From IMG/VR virus record IMGVR_UViG_3300034166_000283, positions 1-47,925 of that record: a DNA stretch of 47,925 bases; one strand, 5' to 3'. Both the position numbers and the translations under genes were made by a program. Positions 1-29,262 of this stretch are shown piece by piece; the stretch's first letter is position 1; each line of letters starts with the position of its first letter. Origin of the DNA: a virus. The notes below the pieces were generated by a model that did not search any database, was not told the DNA's origin, and worked only from the letters and a program-made list of their open reading frames with translations.

Positions 1-1881
1 GTGAGACATCTCAGGTACTACACGCACACCGAAGTTGTACATAGGTAGGTCCTTAAATGATGCGAGGACATCCATATTAGCCTTACCGATTGCGTTCTCG
101 TACACTCTGTAGATAACAGACTGAGGAGGCACGATTTGGAGGCATTTAACGACGTATTCCACGACTTTCTTGTAGAGCATCATAGATGCGTGAGTAATGT
201 CGTAGGTGGCGTTATTTGATGCCTCAATGGCCTGCTGGCGCACACCAACCAATGCGTCACCCTTAGGAGTGGATGCGTCAACTACTTCGTTGATACCCGT
301 AGCGTCACGAATCATACGCAGGTAATGGTTGTATGTATTCACATACGCCTCGATGTTGCGGATGGCGTTACCAATCTCACGGATGGGTGGGTTCTGAAAT
401 CCTCCCTCTGGGTTCTTAGAGCGATAGTAGAAAATACCAGTCTGCTCGTAGATATCTTGAATCTCCAAAGGTTGAAGCTCTCCACCAGAACCGAGCTGTA
501 CGTTCTCCAATCCCTCGATGTCGATGATGAGTCCGTCAGGCTTAGCCTTAGCGATTGACTGCTGAATCTTCAGGTGAGTAATTTGCAGTTGGTCAGCGAA
601 TCCTACGATGCCGCTTACCATAGACTTAGGAATCATACGGCGCATATTCACCGCAACTGCACTGTACGACAGGCGAGTTCTGGTGATATCGTGGATGTTG
701 CGTGGCTGGTTGTTCTTCATCCCATAGCCGTACATCTTGTTCGTACCTACAATGTAGCTACCTCCGTAAAGTGTAACGAATGACATACGTACTGGCTTGC
801 GGTCGAACACGCTCTCCTTGGGTGGCTGATACACCATACCCTTGTAGTAGAATCCTACGTTACCGAAGCGAGACTCCTTAGACTCGTAGAAGATGTCATC
901 AACTGATAGGAACTCGAAGTCCATAACCTCAACGATGTACTCGTCGTATCCGAAGATTGTTCGCTGTAGGTTTCTGTCGTAGTAAGAGTGAGACAGCTTG
1001 TTTGGGTCGTTGGCGTACTTATTCTGTACGTTGCGAGCCATCTGGTCGTACTCCTGCTCAGTGAACTCATCACCAGCCAGACGCTTAAGCTCCGAAATGG
1101 TGATGCGCTTAACGTGACCAGCGTAGGTCAGGTCGTTCATCAGTGGGTCCTCGGTGTACGAGTGGATGAAGTATGCCGGGTCAACGTACTTGGCTACGAG
1201 TCCGTAGTTGGGGTCGTACTCGTTTTTGGTTACGCCCATACCTACCTGAACCAAATCGTTCACGCATCTGCGGTGTACGGTGTGGTTGTATTCGTTCCAC
1301 TCAAGTGTGAGGTTGGCTGCAATCTGCGCGGCAATCTCAGCGTTGGTCTTGATGTTTGACTCTAGGAAAATCTCAGCTTCTTCCGGGGTGTCGGGGATTT
1401 TCTCTAGGTTAGTACCGATGTCAAGTCCAGCCTGCTGAGCCTGCTGTAGCATATCTCTGTTGTTCACGTTGAACTTGAGCTCAGCCTTCTTGCGCTCCTT
1501 CTCGGTGATGCTAAGTGGGTCGATTGCCTCTACGTTGGGGTATGGATTCTTAGAGAGAATCTTATTTACTACAATCTTAACGAACTTGGGGATGATGGGG
1601 ACCGGAGACCAGTCGATGTTGAGCAACGAACCGTCTCCGTTGTTCGGGTCAAGCGAGTTTAGAATCTGCTTGTAAATCTTTGTGTCTTGAGTTCCGTTGG
1701 CGTAGTCTCTGTATCGCTCGAACTCGTCGAGACGCTTACGGAAGATACTTCCGTGGTCGTCTGTATGTCCCCACTGCGACTCGATGGCCTTAGCGTACTT
1801 CAGTCCGTAGGACTTGGCAGCCTTAGCATCGGGAGAAGCTAGTGGGTCAGGGAAGTTCCCTTGCTTGTTATTGCTTTCCAT
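1..1881 (-). CDS. portal protein, C-terminus cut by window edge
   Basis: The leftward frame is open from an ATG at 1881 to base 1 without a stop (627 codons), so the C-terminus is missing. Portal proteins form the dodecameric ring at one capsid vertex, through which DNA is packaged and ejected. I call it from its place directly after the large terminase, its length, and a portal-like pattern: an acidic N-terminus, a long alpha/beta middle, and a stretch near codons 430-520 with a helical NAIRNIEAYVNTYNHYLRMI segment followed by residues like TGINEVVDAS. It resembles portals of Bacteroidota podoviruses. A TAnnTTTG box lies upstream at 1909-1916. Head-protein identity is fairly sure; no assay or search was made. 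Confidence 0.8.
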   Translation of the reverse strand, partial: MESNNKQGNFPDPLASPDAKAAKSYGLKYAKAIESQWGHTDDHGSIFRKRLDEFERYRDYANGTQDTKIYKQILNSLDPNNGDGSLLNIDWSPVPIIPKFVKIVVNKILSKNPYPNVEAIDPLSITEKERKKAELKFNVNNRDMLQQAQQAGLDIGTNLEKIPDTPEEAEIFLESNIKTNAEIAAQIAANLTLEWNEYNHTVHRRCVNDLVQVGMGVTKNEYDPNYGLVAKYVDPAYFIHSYTEDPLMNDLTYAGHVKRITISELKRLAGDEFTEQEYDQMARNVQNKYANDPNKLSHSYYDRNLQRTIFGYDEYIVEVMDFEFLSVDDIFYESKESRFGNVGFYYKGMVYQPPKESVFDRKPVRMSFVTLYGGSYIVGTNKMYGYGMKNNQPRNIHDITRTRLSYSAVAVNMRRMIPKSMVSGIVGFADQLQITHLKIQQSIAKAKPDGLIIDIEGLENVQLGSGGELQPLEIQDIYEQTGIFYYRSKNPEGGFQNPPIREIGNAIRNIEAYVNTYNHYLRMIRDATGINEVVDASTPKGDALVGVRQQAIEASNNATYDITHASMMLYKKVVEYVVKCLQIVPPQSVIYRVYENAIGKANMDVLASFKDLPMYNFGVRVVPEMSH

Positions 1882-1935: not shown

Positions 1936-4062
1936 TTAGCGAGTTATGTCCTTGAATCGCCTGAGGAATACTTTTGATGACATATCTGCCGACTTACGCT
2001 CCTGTTTTACACGCTGTGCTGCGAGCAGTGCAAGACCTGAACTGATGGTCAAGTCAAACTTAGTTCGGTCGTCGATTCGGTAACCAATCCAGTCTTCGAG
2101 GGTCTTATCTAGATACATACGTCCGTATTCACCACTCTCTGCGTTAAGACCCACGTGCTCGTGTACGTACGCCTCAATAGCCTGTGCGTGGGCCTGTATC
2201 ACGTCCTGTGAGTTAGATGGGATACCCTTGGTCTTGACGTTGGAACTAGAACCGGGGGCCCTTAGGTGCTCGGGTCTATCCATAATGTATCCGTCGTATC
2301 CTCTCGATTCGAAGTATCGTACTATCCCATACTTGTTGTTCTCTATGAGCAGTGGATATCCATAGAACACTGCGGCCATCAGTACATCCTCATAGAAGAT
2401 TCTGGCTAGCGGAGGTCTATTGGCATACTCAGCCACGAACATATTCGACGGATAGCTCATATTGAACTTATTGTAGATGTGGCAGGCCCCCTTAGAGCCA
2501 CGTCCGTCCATCGTATTGTCGAGGTCATAGGAGTCAACTCCGCCAGTACCTAGGTGGTCGTTCGCCGGGAACACCTTGCCAAACTCCGTCTTTCGTTTGT
2601 TTCGAATATCGTCTGGTGGTAGCCACGTAACCGTCCAGCGACCGTTGGCATCTGGGTTCCATAGAACCTCGGTGTCTGGCTTGCCGTCCTTCCACACGAA
2701 GTTGCCTTTGATTACAGGGCTTGGGTATAACTCTCTGTTGTGCTGCAACTGCTCGTATATCTTTCCCACGTTGAAGTGAGATGACTTGGTGGAGTCACGG
2801 AATGCCTCCTCCTCGCTCCACGGGAACTGACGGATAACCTCATTGAGTTCATACGGGTCGTGCATCAGTGCCTTACGTTCGTTCGATAGATACGTCTTAG
2901 CTCCGATGCTGATGATGTCTCCATCCATCGTAAGCGTTGGCTCCGCTGGGTCCTCAACCACGGGCATACCGTACACGTCGAAGAATCCTTCAAGCGCCTC
3001 ATAGGCTGGAATGAACAGCTTGTAGAGTCCACTCTTGGTGCGCCCGTTCTCGTTACGCTTGGTGGGGTCCGAGTCGTAGTACAGCTTCTTGTAGTTGGCT
3101 CCGCCCTTATCTAGAGGATTAACAGTTGAGCCGACCATAGCCTTACCTACAATCTTCTTACCTACCAGCAGACAGGTCCTGTGTACACGCCAAACTTCAT
3201 TGATATCGAGCGGATTCTCCCACTTTCCGGCCTCATCGAGGTATAGATAGTGTAGTTTCTCACCGTCGTATGCGTTGGCCACTGAGTTCTTCCAATTGAT
3301 TACCGTATCAAGAGCTTCGGTCTGCCCACTGACTTTGTTGGTCTTTGTGATTCGTTTTGCTGGCTCACGGAATGCGAGCTCCACACGTGGGTTGGTCGTA
3401 CCATCCTGAATCGGCTTGAAGAAGAATGGGTAGGAACGGAACATCGGGAGTAGTTTCTTCATAAAGATGTTCTCTTGTGCGTCCTTACCTGTCTTGGACA
3501 TAATGCCTAGCACCTTATTGGATACCTGCGTACCCTCGTCAGCCAGTGCTGAGCCACAGATGTTGGTGTAACCTGAGCGTCGACACTTGGTGTATATCTG
3601 TCCCACGCACCTAGGGTCCTGCTTGCACGCCTCTAGATGCAGGAAGATTGTCCGCTGGAAGTCTAGGAAGCTGGCGTAACCGATGTCCATCTGGCTCCAC
3701 TGGAGTAGCATATAATGATGCCCGGTAATATATGTTGGAACACCGTTATTGTAGAACCACACACCGTTCCTACGACGGTGAAACTCCTGCTCGATGTAAG
3801 CATTATGTTTTATACGGAACTCCTTGGGCTGCTCCATCCACTCATCCATAGAGCGTACACGCACTAAGTCCTGAGGTACTGGCAATCTCTTCCACATCTG
3901 CTCCTCACGTTTCTTGTCGTGGAACAGAATATCCGTCTTGGCTGGTTGTTTGGGTAGTTGGATGAAGATATCGGATATCTCAATAACATCTCCCTGCGAA
4001 TCATCCGGACAGATGTTCACTAAGAAGTCTTTATACCCGTCTATCTTCTTTAGCCCAGCCAT
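1936..4062 (-). CDS. terL: terminase large subunit (packaging ATPase-nuclease)
   Basis: This 708-residue protein should pump DNA into the prohead and cut the concatemer. A deviant P-loop region (CRRSGYTN, about residues 159-166) is followed by a clear Walker B, LHYLYLDEAGKW, with D276/E277 as the acidic pair, and a coupling-type motif (MVGSTVN) shortly after. The C-terminal half carries an RNase H-like nuclease pattern: GVDSYD near 508, IENNKYG, and FDLTISSGLALL near the end supplying the expected acidic residues. The start ATG shares one base with the stop of the 98-residue gene upstream (TAATG), indicating translational coupling. The lysine of a canonical GKT/S P-loop is not evident, as in other divergent phage terminases. 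Confidence 0.93.
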   Translation of the reverse strand: MAGLKKIDGYKDFLVNICPDDSQGDVIEISDIFIQLPKQPAKTDILFHDKKREEQMWKRLPVPQDLVRVRSMDEWMEQPKEFRIKHNAYIEQEFHRRRNGVWFYNNGVPTYITGHHYMLLQWSQMDIGYASFLDFQRTIFLHLEACKQDPRCVGQIYTKCRRSGYTNICGSALADEGTQVSNKVLGIMSKTGKDAQENIFMKKLLPMFRSYPFFFKPIQDGTTNPRVELAFREPAKRITKTNKVSGQTEALDTVINWKNSVANAYDGEKLHYLYLDEAGKWENPLDINEVWRVHRTCLLVGKKIVGKAMVGSTVNPLDKGGANYKKLYYDSDPTKRNENGRTKSGLYKLFIPAYEALEGFFDVYGMPVVEDPAEPTLTMDGDIISIGAKTYLSNERKALMHDPYELNEVIRQFPWSEEEAFRDSTKSSHFNVGKIYEQLQHNRELYPSPVIKGNFVWKDGKPDTEVLWNPDANGRWTVTWLPPDDIRNKRKTEFGKVFPANDHLGTGGVDSYDLDNTMDGRGSKGACHIYNKFNMSYPSNMFVAEYANRPPLARIFYEDVLMAAVFYGYPLLIENNKYGIVRYFESRGYDGYIMDRPEHLRAPGSSSNVKTKGIPSNSQDVIQAHAQAIEAYVHEHVGLNAESGEYGRMYLDKTLEDWIGYRIDDRTKFDLTISSGLALLAAQRVKQERKSADMSSKVFLRRFKDITR

Positions 4063-8930: not shown

Positions 8931-8932
8931 GC

Positions 8933-9119
8933 TGATTATCAGGTAGTTACGTTAACTCGTTGTGTTTCAGTATGTTGTAACTTGCTGAGTTTTAGCCTGT
9001 TAGTAACTAATTGATTCTCAGCGGTTTACTAACTCGTTGATTATCAGGTAGTATTATTTAGAACGATTCTAAATTTCATCTCGAAGCAACTTTTTTTTTG
9101 GTGCTGATTATCAAGCAGT
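8933..9119 (+). repeat. TGATTATCA-type repeats upstream of the big RNA promoter
   Basis: TGATTATCAGGTAGT occurs exactly at 8933-8947 and 9038-9052, and as TGATTATCAAGCAGT at 9105-9119. The core TGATTATCA is a near-perfect palindrome. A degenerate copy (TGATTCTCAGCGGTT) starts near 9012, and ACTCGTTG also repeats near 8955 and 9032. The cluster ends 58 bases before the strong promoter at 9177, so operators or origin iterons are the natural readings. Confidence 0.6.
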
Positions 9120-9176: not shown

Positions 9177-9207
9177 TTTGCATATTTGTAAAGCCGCAGT
9201 ATATTTG
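9177..9207 (+). promoter_or_regulatory. consensus Bacteroidota promoter for the large RNA
   Basis: TTTG (9177-9180), exactly 19 bases, then TATATTTG (9200-9207). Both boxes are perfect consensus, making this the best promoter in the window. Transcription would begin around 9212-9216 and run rightward through the long structured segment into the 69-residue gene. Confidence 0.78.
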
Positions 9208-9212
9208 TGGAG

Positions 9213-9834
9213 TCGAAAGGCCAACGGGCCACCACCACTCGACGAAGTTTTTTGAAATATCAACCGAAACGCGAACTCAGAGTCGGAGACAAGAGCAGAG
9301 CGCGGTAGGCAGGAAAGTCCCAAGTGACGATAGACGAACGGATGTTGGCGAAAACGCCTCTCCAATTTCTGAAACCCACCTTGTGAACCTTGTACGATTG
9401 AGTCAGTGAGCCACGGCCACTTTCTCTCGGGCGTTAAGGAGCGGAGTAGCAGGTCAGGTCAGAATAGTAGAGTGATGTAAGCAGAAAGCGTAGCGCAAGT
9501 AAGCCAACACAGGTCGATTGAAAGTAGCGAGGGCAGGTAGACAAGACAAGCAAAGCCAAGTACGGCGGCCGTAAGAAACACGAGTCCAAACCTAATGAAG
9601 CAAAGCGCCGTGGCGCGGAGCGACAAGCAGTGCGGAGGAGTCCAATGAACGCCACCTGAACACCTGAGTGAATCGAGTCAAACAAAGCCGAGAACAACAT
9701 CAAGCGAAAGACAGGATATGCGGTGCGTAAACAGCGCCGCCAAAGGATAGCAGATGTGGTCGAACTAACAGCATATGCGGTCAACAGGCTCACGCCACAG
9801 GCCGCCAAAAAAGTTCACCTGTTCAAGGCACACT
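9213..9834 (+). ncRNA. candidate large structured non-coding RNA (about 620 nt)
   Basis: Downstream of the consensus promoter the + strand is G/A-rich, lacks reading frames, and has many local helices: GTCGA/TCGAC around a GGCC-AAC-GGGCC element near 9212-9242, GGCG-AAAA-CGCC at 9347-9358, TACGG-CGG-CCGTA at 9561-9573, GCGC-CGTG-GCGC at 9605-9616, and GCGGTGC/GCGCCGC (9720-9726, 9734-9740). ATATGCGGT is repeated near 9717 and 9774. A tRNA-like element follows directly. Size, phage location and a neighbouring tRNA-like structure recall the large ornate phage RNAs GOLLD and ROOL, but I cannot match their consensus by eye. The opposite-strand open frame (9434-9808) is probably a shadow of strand bias. 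Confidence 0.6.
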
Positions 9835-9886
9835 ACTGCCGCTTGGAGTGCACATCGTGCATAGGGTTCGAGTCCCTACGGCAGTC
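9835..9886 (+). ncRNA. minimal tRNA-like structure lacking a D arm
   Basis: A perfect 7-bp acceptor stem (ACTGCCG 9835-9841 with CGGCAGT 9879-9885) stacks on a perfect T arm: TAGGG (9862-9866), loop TTCGAGT, CCCTA (9874-9878). The T loop matches the TTCRANT consensus. Instead of D and anticodon arms there is only CTTGGAG plus a short TGCAC-ATC-GTGCA hairpin. No CCA is encoded. It cannot decode; it could be an RNase P or RNase Z substrate that sets the 3' end of the upstream RNA, or a tmRNA-like acceptor domain. Confidence 0.68.
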
Positions 9887-9918: not shown

Positions 9919-10128
9919 ATGAAAATTAAAGAAATCGCCATTTTATTTCTTCAATTCTTATTCGTAACCACCATAATCCTACTTCCATTTGTTATTGTCT
10001 TTTCGTTGGCAGACGAAGACCCGCGTGAGAGAATAGAAATAGAAGATGGAACGAGAGTAATTACAATGGACGGAGACACAATCGAAGTTCACGCATACAA
10101 ATTTTTGTACGCATACAAGGTTAACTGA
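9919..10128 (+). CDS. small membrane protein, 69 aa
   Basis: Residues 6-31 (IAILFLQFLFVTTIILLPFV plus flanks) form one strong transmembrane helix, followed by a charged, beta-like tail of about 38 residues rich in D/E. Holin or membrane-effector roles are possible, but one helix is not diagnostic. Its TGA stop lies inside the catalytic core of the first hammerhead ribozyme, so cleavage would separate it from the amidoligase message. Confidence 0.75.
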   Translation: MKIKEIAILFLQFLFVTTIILLPFVIVFSLADEDPRERIEIEDGTRVITMDGDTIEVHAYKFLYAYKVN

Positions 10129-10169
10129 TGAGCGCTTTAATAGCCGAAACGTCGTGAGACGTCTTAACC
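10119..10169 (+). ncRNA. hammerhead ribozyme 1 (type I)
   Basis: Stem I GGTTAA (10119-10124) pairs with TTAACC (10164-10169). Core CTGATGA (10125-10131) and GAAA (10146-10149) are both intact. Stem II pairs G10132, G10134 and C10135 with GCC (10143-10145), with one bulged C and a 7-base loop TTTAATA. Stem III is CGTC-GTGA-GACG, a GNRA tetraloop, followed by TC. The predicted cleavage is after C10163. All invariant core bases are present. It sits between the membrane-protein gene and the amidoligase. Confidence 0.85.
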
Positions 10170-10193
10170 AAAAACAATTTAATTCTTTTCGTT

Positions 10194-11717
10194 ATGAGAG
10201 TTACCAATATCGTATCAGGCCGTCAGATTGAAATCCGCCGCTCTTACTACAACGAGCAGTTCAACTTCTACTTCGGTATCAACAACGACTTCTTTGTGTA
10301 CACCTACGCCAACAACGAAGGTGAACTTAACCGCACTCGTTTCCCTCGCGCACTCAACGCCGCTGAGTGGGGCATCGACCTTCGTACGGGCACTCACTCG
10401 TCAGCAACATTCGAACTGCGCGGTCAACAAATTCTGCGAGGTCGCTACTTCCGTAGCGAGCAGGTATCTGAGCAACGCATCTTAGGTATTCCGCACGTTA
10501 CGCTAACTAATGATGAGAAGGCCAACTTCGCTGTTCGTGTGGCAGAGTCAAGCGGACACAACTCAAACGTGTTTGTATCACTGCTCATCGGGGAAGTACT
10601 GCATACAACTGACCTTGTCGTTCGTAATTACTCAACTACTTCGGCGAAGTTCTACGATGCGAACGGAGTGTCTCACGTGCTAAATTTCCAAGACAACGAG
10701 TACGGCCACGTTATGTCTGCAATTCGTGAAGGTCGCACTGAGTACTTAACAGGTCGCGACCTGTTAGGCAATACGTCAATCTTCGCCAACGCTGAGATTC
10801 AGGAGCGCTTCGGTGCAGCCCCTGAACTTAGCGGTTACCACGGCCCATCACGCAACACCGAAATCTTCAACGATTCATCAGTTGAGTGGTTCGTAGGTTT
10901 CGAGGTCGAGAAGGAGGACCTGAATGTTCGCAACCGCTGCGCTCGTGCTAACTGCAACTTGGGTGACGGATGGATTGCAGAACGCGACGGCTCACTCGAT
11001 TCATCGACAGGTGTCGAGGTCGTGTCACCTGTACTCAACCTGTTCGATACGAAGACATTGTTCGAGCAGTTCGAGAAGTACGATTGGGTTATGAACGCAG
11101 AGTACTCACGCCGCTGTGGTGGCCACATCACCATCAGCCGTCGTGGAATTTCAGCCGATGACCTCGTCGACAAGTTGGCTCCGTTCGTGCCTATGCTTTT
11201 CTCGCTATACGAAGGCCGCCTGTCCAATCAGTACAGCGGAGTTCAGAGCAAGGACGAAATCAAGCGAGGTTCACGCCGCGCCATCAACAACTGCTCACGT
11301 GCATACAATAACCGCAAGGAGGCAGTTGAGATTCGCATCTTCAGCGCAGTATCTACGCTCGAGTCAATTAAGTTCCGCACGAAGTTGGTTCAGTGGATAT
11401 GCGCTCACATCGACAAGGGCACGTTCACCACGTTCACTCAGGTGGCCGATGCTATGTTCAACGACAAGAAGTTGAACAAGTTACTTCGTCAGCAGTACAG
11501 CGCTGAGAAGTTAGCACGTAAGCAGGCACTCACCTACGTGTTCGGCGGATGTCTCGAAGGTCAGTCACCGAGCGAGTTTCTCACCGATGCTGACAACTAC
11601 GACCGCACCATCGAGCGTATGAAGCGAGCCTACGACAGCGTACAGGGCTACGTTCGCCGCGAGGTCGAGAGCAAGTTCGGTACTTACTCAGTCAATAAGG
11701 CCGCAGGTAAGTTGTAA
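10194..11717 (+). CDS. amidoligase family protein (Amidoligase_2-like), 507 aa
   Basis: Residues 1-225 form an N-terminal region I do not recognise. Residues 230-430 carry the Amidoligase_2 pattern of the GCS/glutamine-synthetase-like COOH-NH2 ligase fold: GFEVEKED, then WIAERDGSL and TGVEVVSPVL, then CGGHITISRRG near 308, then SRAYNNRKEAVEIRIFSAVS near 375. Such enzymes are thought to form ATP-dependent amide bonds between a carboxylate and an amine, often on peptides; the substrate is unknown here. A class II glutamine amidotransferase and an AIG2/GGCT-like protein, typical companions, are encoded downstream. The gene and its 66-residue follower are bracketed by two hammerhead ribozymes. 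Confidence 0.82.
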   Translation: MRVTNIVSGRQIEIRRSYYNEQFNFYFGINNDFFVYTYANNEGELNRTRFPRALNAAEWGIDLRTGTHSSATFELRGQQILRGRYFRSEQVSEQRILGIPHVTLTNDEKANFAVRVAESSGHNSNVFVSLLIGEVLHTTDLVVRNYSTTSAKFYDANGVSHVLNFQDNEYGHVMSAIREGRTEYLTGRDLLGNTSIFANAEIQERFGAAPELSGYHGPSRNTEIFNDSSVEWFVGFEVEKEDLNVRNRCARANCNLGDGWIAERDGSLDSSTGVEVVSPVLNLFDTKTLFEQFEKYDWVMNAEYSRRCGGHITISRRGISADDLVDKLAPFVPMLFSLYEGRLSNQYSGVQSKDEIKRGSRRAINNCSRAYNNRKEAVEIRIFSAVSTLESIKFRTKLVQWICAHIDKGTFTTFTQVADAMFNDKKLNKLLRQQYSAEKLARKQALTYVFGGCLEGQSPSEFLTDADNYDRTIERMKRAYDSVQGYVRREVESKFGTYSVNKAAGKL

Positions 11718-11800: not shown

Positions 11801-12001
11801 ATGAAACACGAACTAAACGAAATGATGCGAGCCTACGAAAACTACCTGAGTAAGGTATCGAGGTTCATCGAAGCAACCGACGAAACCGAACGCTACAAGT
11901 TGATTGCGTTCGATATAATCGAGCGGCAAAGTATCGACCTCGAAGAAAACTTGGAGGCCGCATACGAAACGCTAACGCAATATCTAGAAGAACGAGGTTA
12001 A
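11801..12001 (+). CDS. hypothetical helical protein, 66 aa
   Basis: ATG at 11801 gives MKHELNEMMRAYENYLSKVS and an all-helical, acidic protein. The longer frame from 11738 runs through the terminator hairpin and is rejected. Its TAA stop lies in stem I of the second hammerhead. Function unknown; it is confined with the amidoligase between the two ribozymes. Confidence 0.7.
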   Translation: MKHELNEMMRAYENYLSKVSRFIEATDETERYKLIAFDIIERQSIDLEENLEAAYETLTQYLEERG

Positions 12002-12046
12002 CTGACGATGGCTTGAGTAGCCGAAACGCTGTGAAGCGTCTTAACC
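11996..12046 (+). ncRNA. hammerhead ribozyme 2 (type I)
   Basis: Same plan as copy 1. Stem I GGTTAA (11996-12001) with TTAACC (12041-12046); core CTGACGA (12002-12008, the CUGANGA consensus) and GAAA (12023-12026); stem II GGC/GCC (12010-12012, 12020-12022) after one extra T; stem III CGCT-GTGA-AGCG (12027-12038); then TC, with predicted cleavage after C12040. Stem III differs from copy 1 (CGTC/GACG) by paired changes that keep all four base pairs, good evidence for selection on structure. Confidence 0.85.
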
Positions 12047-12060
12047 ATAAACTAATTAAG

Positions 12061-19431: not shown

Positions 19432-19637
19432 AGACACCAATGCAAATGATTGAGGATAAACTCAACGAATCAGATGGACGAGAGTTCTATCGTTGGGCTG
19501 TAATCAATCTACCTATGCTCATAAAGAGAGAGAAGATGTTTATCAATGTAGAGAAGAATCGATTATCAAAGAATAACGATGAGAAAGTCGTAATCAGCGG
19601 TAATTATTCTAGAACAATTTGCATTTCTGATAAATAA
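19428..19637 (+). CDS. hypothetical protein, 69 aa
   Basis: MKTPMQMIEDKLNESDGREF followed by a helical, basic middle (LIKREKMFINVEKNRL). ATGA overlap with mazG. The -33 element of the next promoter lies at its 3' end. Function unknown. Confidence 0.7.
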   Translation: MKTPMQMIEDKLNESDGREFYRWAVINLPMLIKREKMFINVEKNRLSKNNDEKVVISGNYSRTICISDK

Positions 19638-29154: not shown

Positions 29155-29228
29155 GTCCCCATAGCTCAACTGGACAGAGCAACGCACTTCTAATGCGTAG
29201 GTTTCAGGTTCGACTCCTGATGGGGATG
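29155..29228 (+). tRNA. tRNA-Arg (anticodon UCU)
   Basis: Full cloverleaf: acceptor GTCCCCA/TGGGGAT (one G-T pair), D stem GCTC/GAGC, anticodon stem ACGCA/TGCGT with loop CTTCTAA (anticodon TCT at 29189-29191), five-base variable loop AGGTT, T stem TCAGG/CCTGA with loop TTCGACT, discriminator G. CCA is not encoded. It reads AGA (and AGG by wobble), an Arg codon used in the phage genes. Confidence 0.96.
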
Positions 29229-29230
29229 CT

Positions 29231-29262
29231 ATTGCATATGTCGACTACGCTTACTATCTTTG
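29231..29262 (+). promoter_or_regulatory. Bacteroidota-type promoter after the tRNA
   Basis: ATTG (29231-29234), 20 bases, TATCTTTG (29255-29262). It would start transcription about 18-20 bases before the ATG of the zinc-ribbon gene at 29287. Confidence 0.65.

Follow-up and report, generated by a model that had tools for sequence, protein, structure and literature searches.

A large covarying RNA with a tRNA-like 3′ element, outside the Rfam classes, in a podovirus-like phage of Bacteroidota

The DNA analysed here, which we refer to as the window, is the whole of the 47,925-base IMG/VR record IMGVR_UViG_3300034166_000283. Its TerL gene (1936-4062, - strand) matches PHROG 6681, and the TerL protein is 48% identical to that of the uncultured podovirus MW202828 and 40% identical to the TerLs of Flavobacterium 'elemo' phages; as the records matched are mostly phages of Flavobacterium and Cellulophaga, the window can be assigned on these matches to a podovirus-like phage of Bacteroidota. 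Laboratory strains of both genera serve as hosts for named relatives. Approximately 5 kb from TerL, between leftward late genes and a rightward operon, lies the RNA region whose parts are given in Table 1. The 507-aa ORF of the operon weakly matches an amidoligase family of phages (E = 0.0078) and is flanked by two ~81% identical copies of a 68-nt intergenic stretch (10115-10182 and ~11992-12059) that contains a small hairpin, ACGTC-GTGA-GACGT. Three imperfect copies of CTGATTATCAGGTAGT (8932-8947, 9037-9052 and 9104-9119) occupy the noncoding stretch upstream of the RNA promoter; at least three copies were found in none of 100 window shuffles, and they are possible regulator or replication sites. 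Elsewhere in the window, an ordinary tRNA-Arg (tct) at 29155 is the sole Rfam match above gathering score. Immediately 3′ of it (29155-29262), upstream of the ORF of a small CxxC...CxxC protein, is a promoter-like TTG-N19-TATCTTTG, and a further promoter-like site with an N20 spacer is found at 19618. The DxDGD RNA-polymerase motif was not found in the four large ORFs examined.

Table 1 Features of the RNA locus, in window coordinates.
Feature	Position	Strand	Basis or remark
Bacteroidota sigma-A type promoter, TTTG-N19-TATATTTG	9177..9207	+	Sequence; kept in homologues
5′-terminal hairpin, outer GTCGA/TCGAC, inner GGCC-AACG-GGCC	9212..9243	+	Sequence, fold
Structured noncoding RNA body	9212..9834	+	Homologues, alignment fold versus column shuffles, no common frame
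Covarying core domain, 49 pairs in 10 helices	9317..9536	+	Covariation
3′ hairpin, GCGGTGC-GTAAACA-GCGCCGC	9720..9740	+	Sequence; conserved in L003/L004/L011/L098 groups
3′ hairpin module, GCGG...(tip)...CCGC	9777..9806	+	Compensatory tip changes among homologues
tRNA-like 3′ element (mini-tRNA), 51 nt	9835..9885	+	Sequence, covariation, shuffles
69-aa ORF	9919..10128	+	Directly 3′ of the RNA; missing in L003 and L004
507-aa ORF	10194..11717	+	First long gene downstream of the RNA

A first-pass annotation of this DNA had read a perfect TTTG-N19 promoter followed by about 620 nt of frame-free sequence, and both readings hold. The promoter, composed of TTTG (9177-9180), a 19-nt spacer and TATATTTG (9200-9207), is unique in the window as an N19 site without mismatches, whereas a crude block shuffle predicts 0.15 such sites. 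Its spacing suggests that transcription probably starts at ~9211-9213, and short hairpins analogous to the 5′-terminal hairpin are found at the same position in the related loci L011, L046, L124, L065 and L029. Beyond it, stops occur in all frames of the window region and in each frame of each homologue, and the longest open stretch sits in different frames in different homologues. A conserved protein frame, which the annotation had named as grounds for giving up an RNA, was thus looked for across the homologues; none is common to them, which rules out a protein-coding region.

The homologues comprise 10 distinct sequences from phage contigs, 55-97% identical and falling into divergent groups, a sample that is small and drawn from one phage group. 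Recruitment was via the 507-aa gene (L002, L003 and L004) or via TerL (L011, L013, L014 and L015); L002, a contig of 61.6 kb, is identical to the window over the 3.5 kb compared, and L108 is incomplete, being cut by a contig end. The promoter is kept in the homologues, and the 507-aa gene lies downstream in every contig long enough. Pattern scans with three different parts of the RNA reached the same contigs, and a fourth, with the 3′ hairpin, added only chance matches. No further homologues were found by the core covariance model, R1, in 0.99 Mb of related-phage and pattern-hit DNA, nor did blastn of the RNA match any of 50,697 phage records. Four matches in genome_contigs (L119-L122) were considered as host or prophage copies and rejected as chance, sharing only a ~25-nt query motif; L143 and L146 were likewise chance matches.

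The annotation had also described many perfect hairpins, and this claim fared unevenly. The fold of the single sequence is no better than that of shuffles (z = +1.61), so hairpins read by eye and folding energy alone provide no evidence; the alignment, in contrast, strongly supports structure. RNAalifold gave -257.8 kcal/mol for the alignment versus -177 to -198 in 14 column shuffles, with 40 double-changed pairs in the fold versus 19-32. In the core domain, 95.0% of cells are paired, compensatory changes affect both sides in 24 of the 49 pairs and covariation has a score of 0.529, values reached by none of 500 shuffles; this is the covariation test among related phages that the annotation had proposed. 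Sliding the core partners by 1-3 columns reduced pairing to at most 38.5%, a control biased by the derivation of the structure from the same sequences. The core sequences fall into few groups and not all compensatory changes are independent events; the number of distinct compensated core helices is far beyond chance. One such helix reads CCUUG/UAAGG in the window, CCCUG/UAGGG in L011 and CCCCA/UGGGG in L013. Of the two 3′ hairpins, that at 9720..9740 is conserved and therefore carries little covariation information, and the module at 9777..9806 has tips that are compensated as a whole (GGC/GCC, GUUG/CAAC, GGACGC/GCGUCC and AAACGC/GCGUUU). Chance structure is rejected by the core shuffles, the shuffles for the tRNA-like element and the alignment column shuffles, and we conclude that a phage-encoded, covarying structured RNA exists at this locus.

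Conserved hairpins could also belong to DNA, for instance a replication origin or packaging site that forms them in single strands. The divergent intergenic position and the direct repeats (TGATTATCAGGTAGT) just upstream would suit such an element, but G-U cells exceed A-C cells by 20 to 6, which indicates an RNA on the + strand, and the conserved, rightly placed promoter, the tRNA-like end and its strand-specific T-loop make the DNA reading scarcely credible.

The tRNA-like element contains the 7+5 bp acceptor/T-arm structure that had been reported here, composed of the acceptor ACTGCCG/CGGCAGT and a T-arm, TAGGG-TTCGAGT-CCCTA, with a TTCGAGT loop. It also has an anticodon-like stem of 5 bp, TGCAC-ATC-GTGCA, that had been overlooked, and a GG-containing spacer, CTTGGAG, in place of a D-arm; no CCA is encoded 3′ of the acceptor. 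A covarying version is present in all complete homologues, with for example a middle stem TGCGC-TCA-GCGCA in L004 and, in L015, an acceptor TTCTGCG/CGCAGAA, a stem GTCC/GGAC and a T-arm AGTGG/CCACT. Every version keeps GG in its spacer. In tRNAs, the GG of the D-loop docks in the T-loop; the spacer GG appears to occupy the corresponding place, and we infer that it may dock likewise. Folded in isolation, the elements of some homologues favour pairing between spacer and T-loop, and the tRNA-like shape thus rests on covariation, not energy. Such an element arose in none of 100 dinucleotide shuffles of the window, on both strands.

Several identities were considered for this element. It is not a tRNA, having no cloverleaf with a D-arm and 7-nt anticodon loop and receiving no call from ARAGORN or Rfam, nor part of a tmRNA, as none was called and the two strands of its acceptor are contained in 51 nt rather than formed by the ends of the whole RNA. 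Its best Rfam resemblance at E up to 10 is mascRNA-menRNA (RF01684), at 19.6 bits well below the gathering score of 42.5 and hence insufficient for membership.

A minimal RNase P substrate consists of an acceptor and a T-arm. The predicted secondary structure of the element supplies both, a 7-bp acceptor coaxial with a 5-bp T-arm that bears a T-loop, which suggests a cut at 9834/9835; if RNase P does cut before the element, 9212..9834 is the predicted mature RNA; with the element included, the RNA measures roughly 670 nt. No + strand terminator was found in the window after the mini-tRNA or before the 507-aa gene, so the 3′ end of the RNA must arise by processing or be located further downstream. 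Two related loci carry the element behind protein genes. In L065, a promoter and 5′ hairpin precede protein genes, and a mini-tRNA further down (4035-3994, -) overlaps a stop codon; in L083, one lies at 4018-3972 (-), directly 3′ of a 182-aa ORF. Both consist of acceptor and T-arm at the stop codons of early protein genes and are possible mRNA-processing signals, and in this position the element looks like a portable processing signal. The reading as an RNase P signal thus fits the anatomy predicted here: minimal substrate, missing terminator and placement behind the stop codons of relatives. Alternatively, the mini-tRNA may be retained as the 3′ end; perhaps after addition of CCA, the RNA might be bound by EF-Tu, a synthetase or some other protein that recognises tRNAs, and so be protected or act as a tRNA mimic. 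Acceptor, T-loop and D-loop-like GG are all kept, which is more than a bare cleavage signal requires; the lack of an encoded CCA and the elements behind mRNAs in L065 and L083, whose presence cannot be put down to a large RNA acting as a mimic, nevertheless make a retained end unlikely. Two further tRNA-like structures were observed. L086 has a longer one at ~2405-2315 (-), GGACTG...TGTGGGTTCGAGTCCCACACAGTCC with an inner CCGACCA/TGGTCGG helix, and a related GGAGACCACAC...ACGGACTG stretch ~290 nt upstream of it, and MW202828.1 (L153), a complete named relative, has a possible D-arm-poor element at 636-697 (+).

We compared the RNA with known classes by the Rfam covariance-model search that the first-pass annotation had recommended, which included GOLLD and ROOL. 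Even with permissive filters and an E-value limit of 10, only chance-level matches were obtained, and seven related loci had no Rfam match. RNase P RNA, a candidate prompted by AGGAAAGTCC at ~9311-9320, received no covariance-model support. As a kind, the RNA is familiar: at more than 500 nt, phage-encoded, with extensive covarying structure and no conserved frame, it is a large ornate phage noncoding RNA. Its class is absent from Rfam. Of the earlier proposal that it is a GOLLD or ROOL RNA or else a new class, the second part stands, as a covarying RNA without Rfam match; the first does not, the likeness being limited to size, phage origin and architecture. A literature search that covered only a minority of subscription papers found no report of this RNA, which does not prove that none exists.

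ROOL RNAs, at ~650 nt, occur in phages and prophages, have elaborate covarying structure, often lie near tRNA genes and have no known function (PMC12286853; PMC5643018); unlike them, the window RNA matches no ROOL model, has a mini-tRNA within its transcription unit and comes from a different host group. GOLLD RNAs are likewise large phage RNAs that lie near or contain tRNAs, and in one phage GOLLD is expressed during lysis (PMC12286853), but many exceed 800 nt, whereas the window RNA is smaller, matches no GOLLD model and does not contain the conserved GOLLD 3′ region. Both classes form RNA-only cages whose function is unknown (PMC12286853), octameric for ROOL and 14-meric for GOLLD. Size, phage origin, ornate structure and association with a tRNA-like element (PMC12286853) might hint at a GOLLD or ROOL RNA diverged beyond recognition by the Rfam models, but with no match under such permissive settings for the window RNA, and none for the seven related loci or the RNA of L046 described below, we regard this as very improbable. 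Another large orf-less phage transcript is the ~800-nt noncoding RNA of ICP1, the most abundant transcript of that phage and likened to GOLLD and ROOL by its authors (PMC7567579); it differs in belonging to a Vibrio phage, lying beside a lysis cluster, and having no tRNA, and the window RNA had no DNA match in the phage collection.

The locus has a second occupant in other phages. L046 (4500-3651, -) and L124 (2635-3478, +) carry at the same place a ~750-nt frame-free RNA, 80% identical between them, with the same plan of promoter, short start hairpin (GUCGAAAG...GAC) and mini-tRNA, and with a relative of the 507-aa gene downstream. Its body shares no similarity with the window RNA by blastn, nhmmer aligned only promoter and start, and model R1 gave no match, so the two cannot be joined into one class on these grounds. 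The two-sequence fold (-432.7 versus -348 to -380 in column shuffles) and its double-changed pairs (20 versus 9-16) point to a second large structured RNA class, apparently unrelated to the first; the L046 RNA has no Rfam match. A third arrangement is found in L029, L032 and L033, where promoter and a GUUC-UUCG-GAAC hairpin precede a conserved ~330-nt stretch (about 6100-5780, -, in L033; the same place in the others) that ends in a terminator-like hairpin and is possibly a third noncoding RNA or a leader. No mini-tRNA accompanies it, which indicates that the element is not indispensable at this locus and, together with its occurrence behind mRNAs, that it occurs independently of the large RNA.

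These loci also bear on whether the RNA is free or a long cis-regulatory 5′ leader of the downstream operon. A leader would be in keeping with the lack of a terminator before the 507-aa gene in the window and with the relative of this gene behind the L046 RNA. However, the structured part exceeds 600 nt, a mini-tRNA separates RNA from genes, the distance to those genes varies and the 69-aa ORF is inserted, and L124 has a terminator-like hairpin with T run after its mini-tRNA. All of this argues against a leader, which we consider distinctly unlikely.

We favour as the probable explanation a noncoding RNA that is large, structured and of a class missing from Rfam: an early host-polymerase transcript with a 5′-terminal hairpin and a probably RNase P-cut 3′ end, acting as RNA. 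Host RNA polymerase would probably transcribe it early, at the head of the rightward operon, from the window's sole perfect N19 Bacteroidota promoter, starting at or a few bases from the 5′-terminal hairpin. The transcript would fold into the branched core and a 3′ hairpin domain, followed by the mini-tRNA. Host RNase P would most likely cut at ~9834/9835, yielding a stable ~620-nt RNA and freeing the downstream mRNA; the mini-tRNA itself may become detached or undergo additional trimming. Stabilised by its 5′ hairpin and RNase P-made 3′ end, the RNA would accumulate and might work in a GOLLD- or ROOL-like way, either structurally or in taking over the host; by analogy with these two classes (PMC12286853) and with the abundant ICP1 RNA (PMC7567579), a role of this sort appears likelier than base-pairing regulation. 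This explanation is favoured by the conserved promoter, the covarying core and + strand fold, the absence of a common frame, the covarying mini-tRNA and the missing terminator. It is also favoured by L046/L124, in which the locus holds a second RNA built to the same plan and counted as independent, and by L065 and L083, in which mini-tRNAs immediately follow coding genes, in the way of a processing signal. Against it are the lack of an encoded CCA after the acceptor, the L029/L032/L033 RNAs without mini-tRNA and the small homologue sample from one phage group.

More tentatively, and with somewhat less than an even chance in our estimation, these phages may hold an exchangeable early-transcript cassette, with a host-type promoter and 5′-terminal hairpin on one side, a mini-tRNA cleavage signal on the other and, as cargo, either unrelated large RNAs (the window and L046/L124 types) or mRNA. 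In that case, at least two GOLLD/ROOL-like RNA classes would have originated at a single locus or been exchanged there, and these bacterial viruses would form the 3′ ends of such RNAs in the way of MALAT1/mascRNA. To our knowledge, a large noncoding RNA followed by a tRNA-like end is otherwise seen only in MALAT1 and MEN beta. In these long noncoding RNAs, RNase P cuts at a small D-arm-poor tRNA-like structure, mascRNA or menRNA, that abuts the 3′ end (PMC11693755); they are human nuclear RNAs and no homology is implied, and cleavage at the window element is predicted.

Few classes of large ornate phage RNA are known (GOLLD and ROOL), and an additional one from Bacteroidota phages provides an independent comparison. 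Two apparently unrelated classes at one locus have in common a 5′ hairpin, a tRNA-like end and a position at the start of an operon, features that hint at the requirements for such RNAs to work. The built-in 3′ processing signal, if true, would be a bacterial-virus parallel to the maturation of MALAT1 by RNase P.
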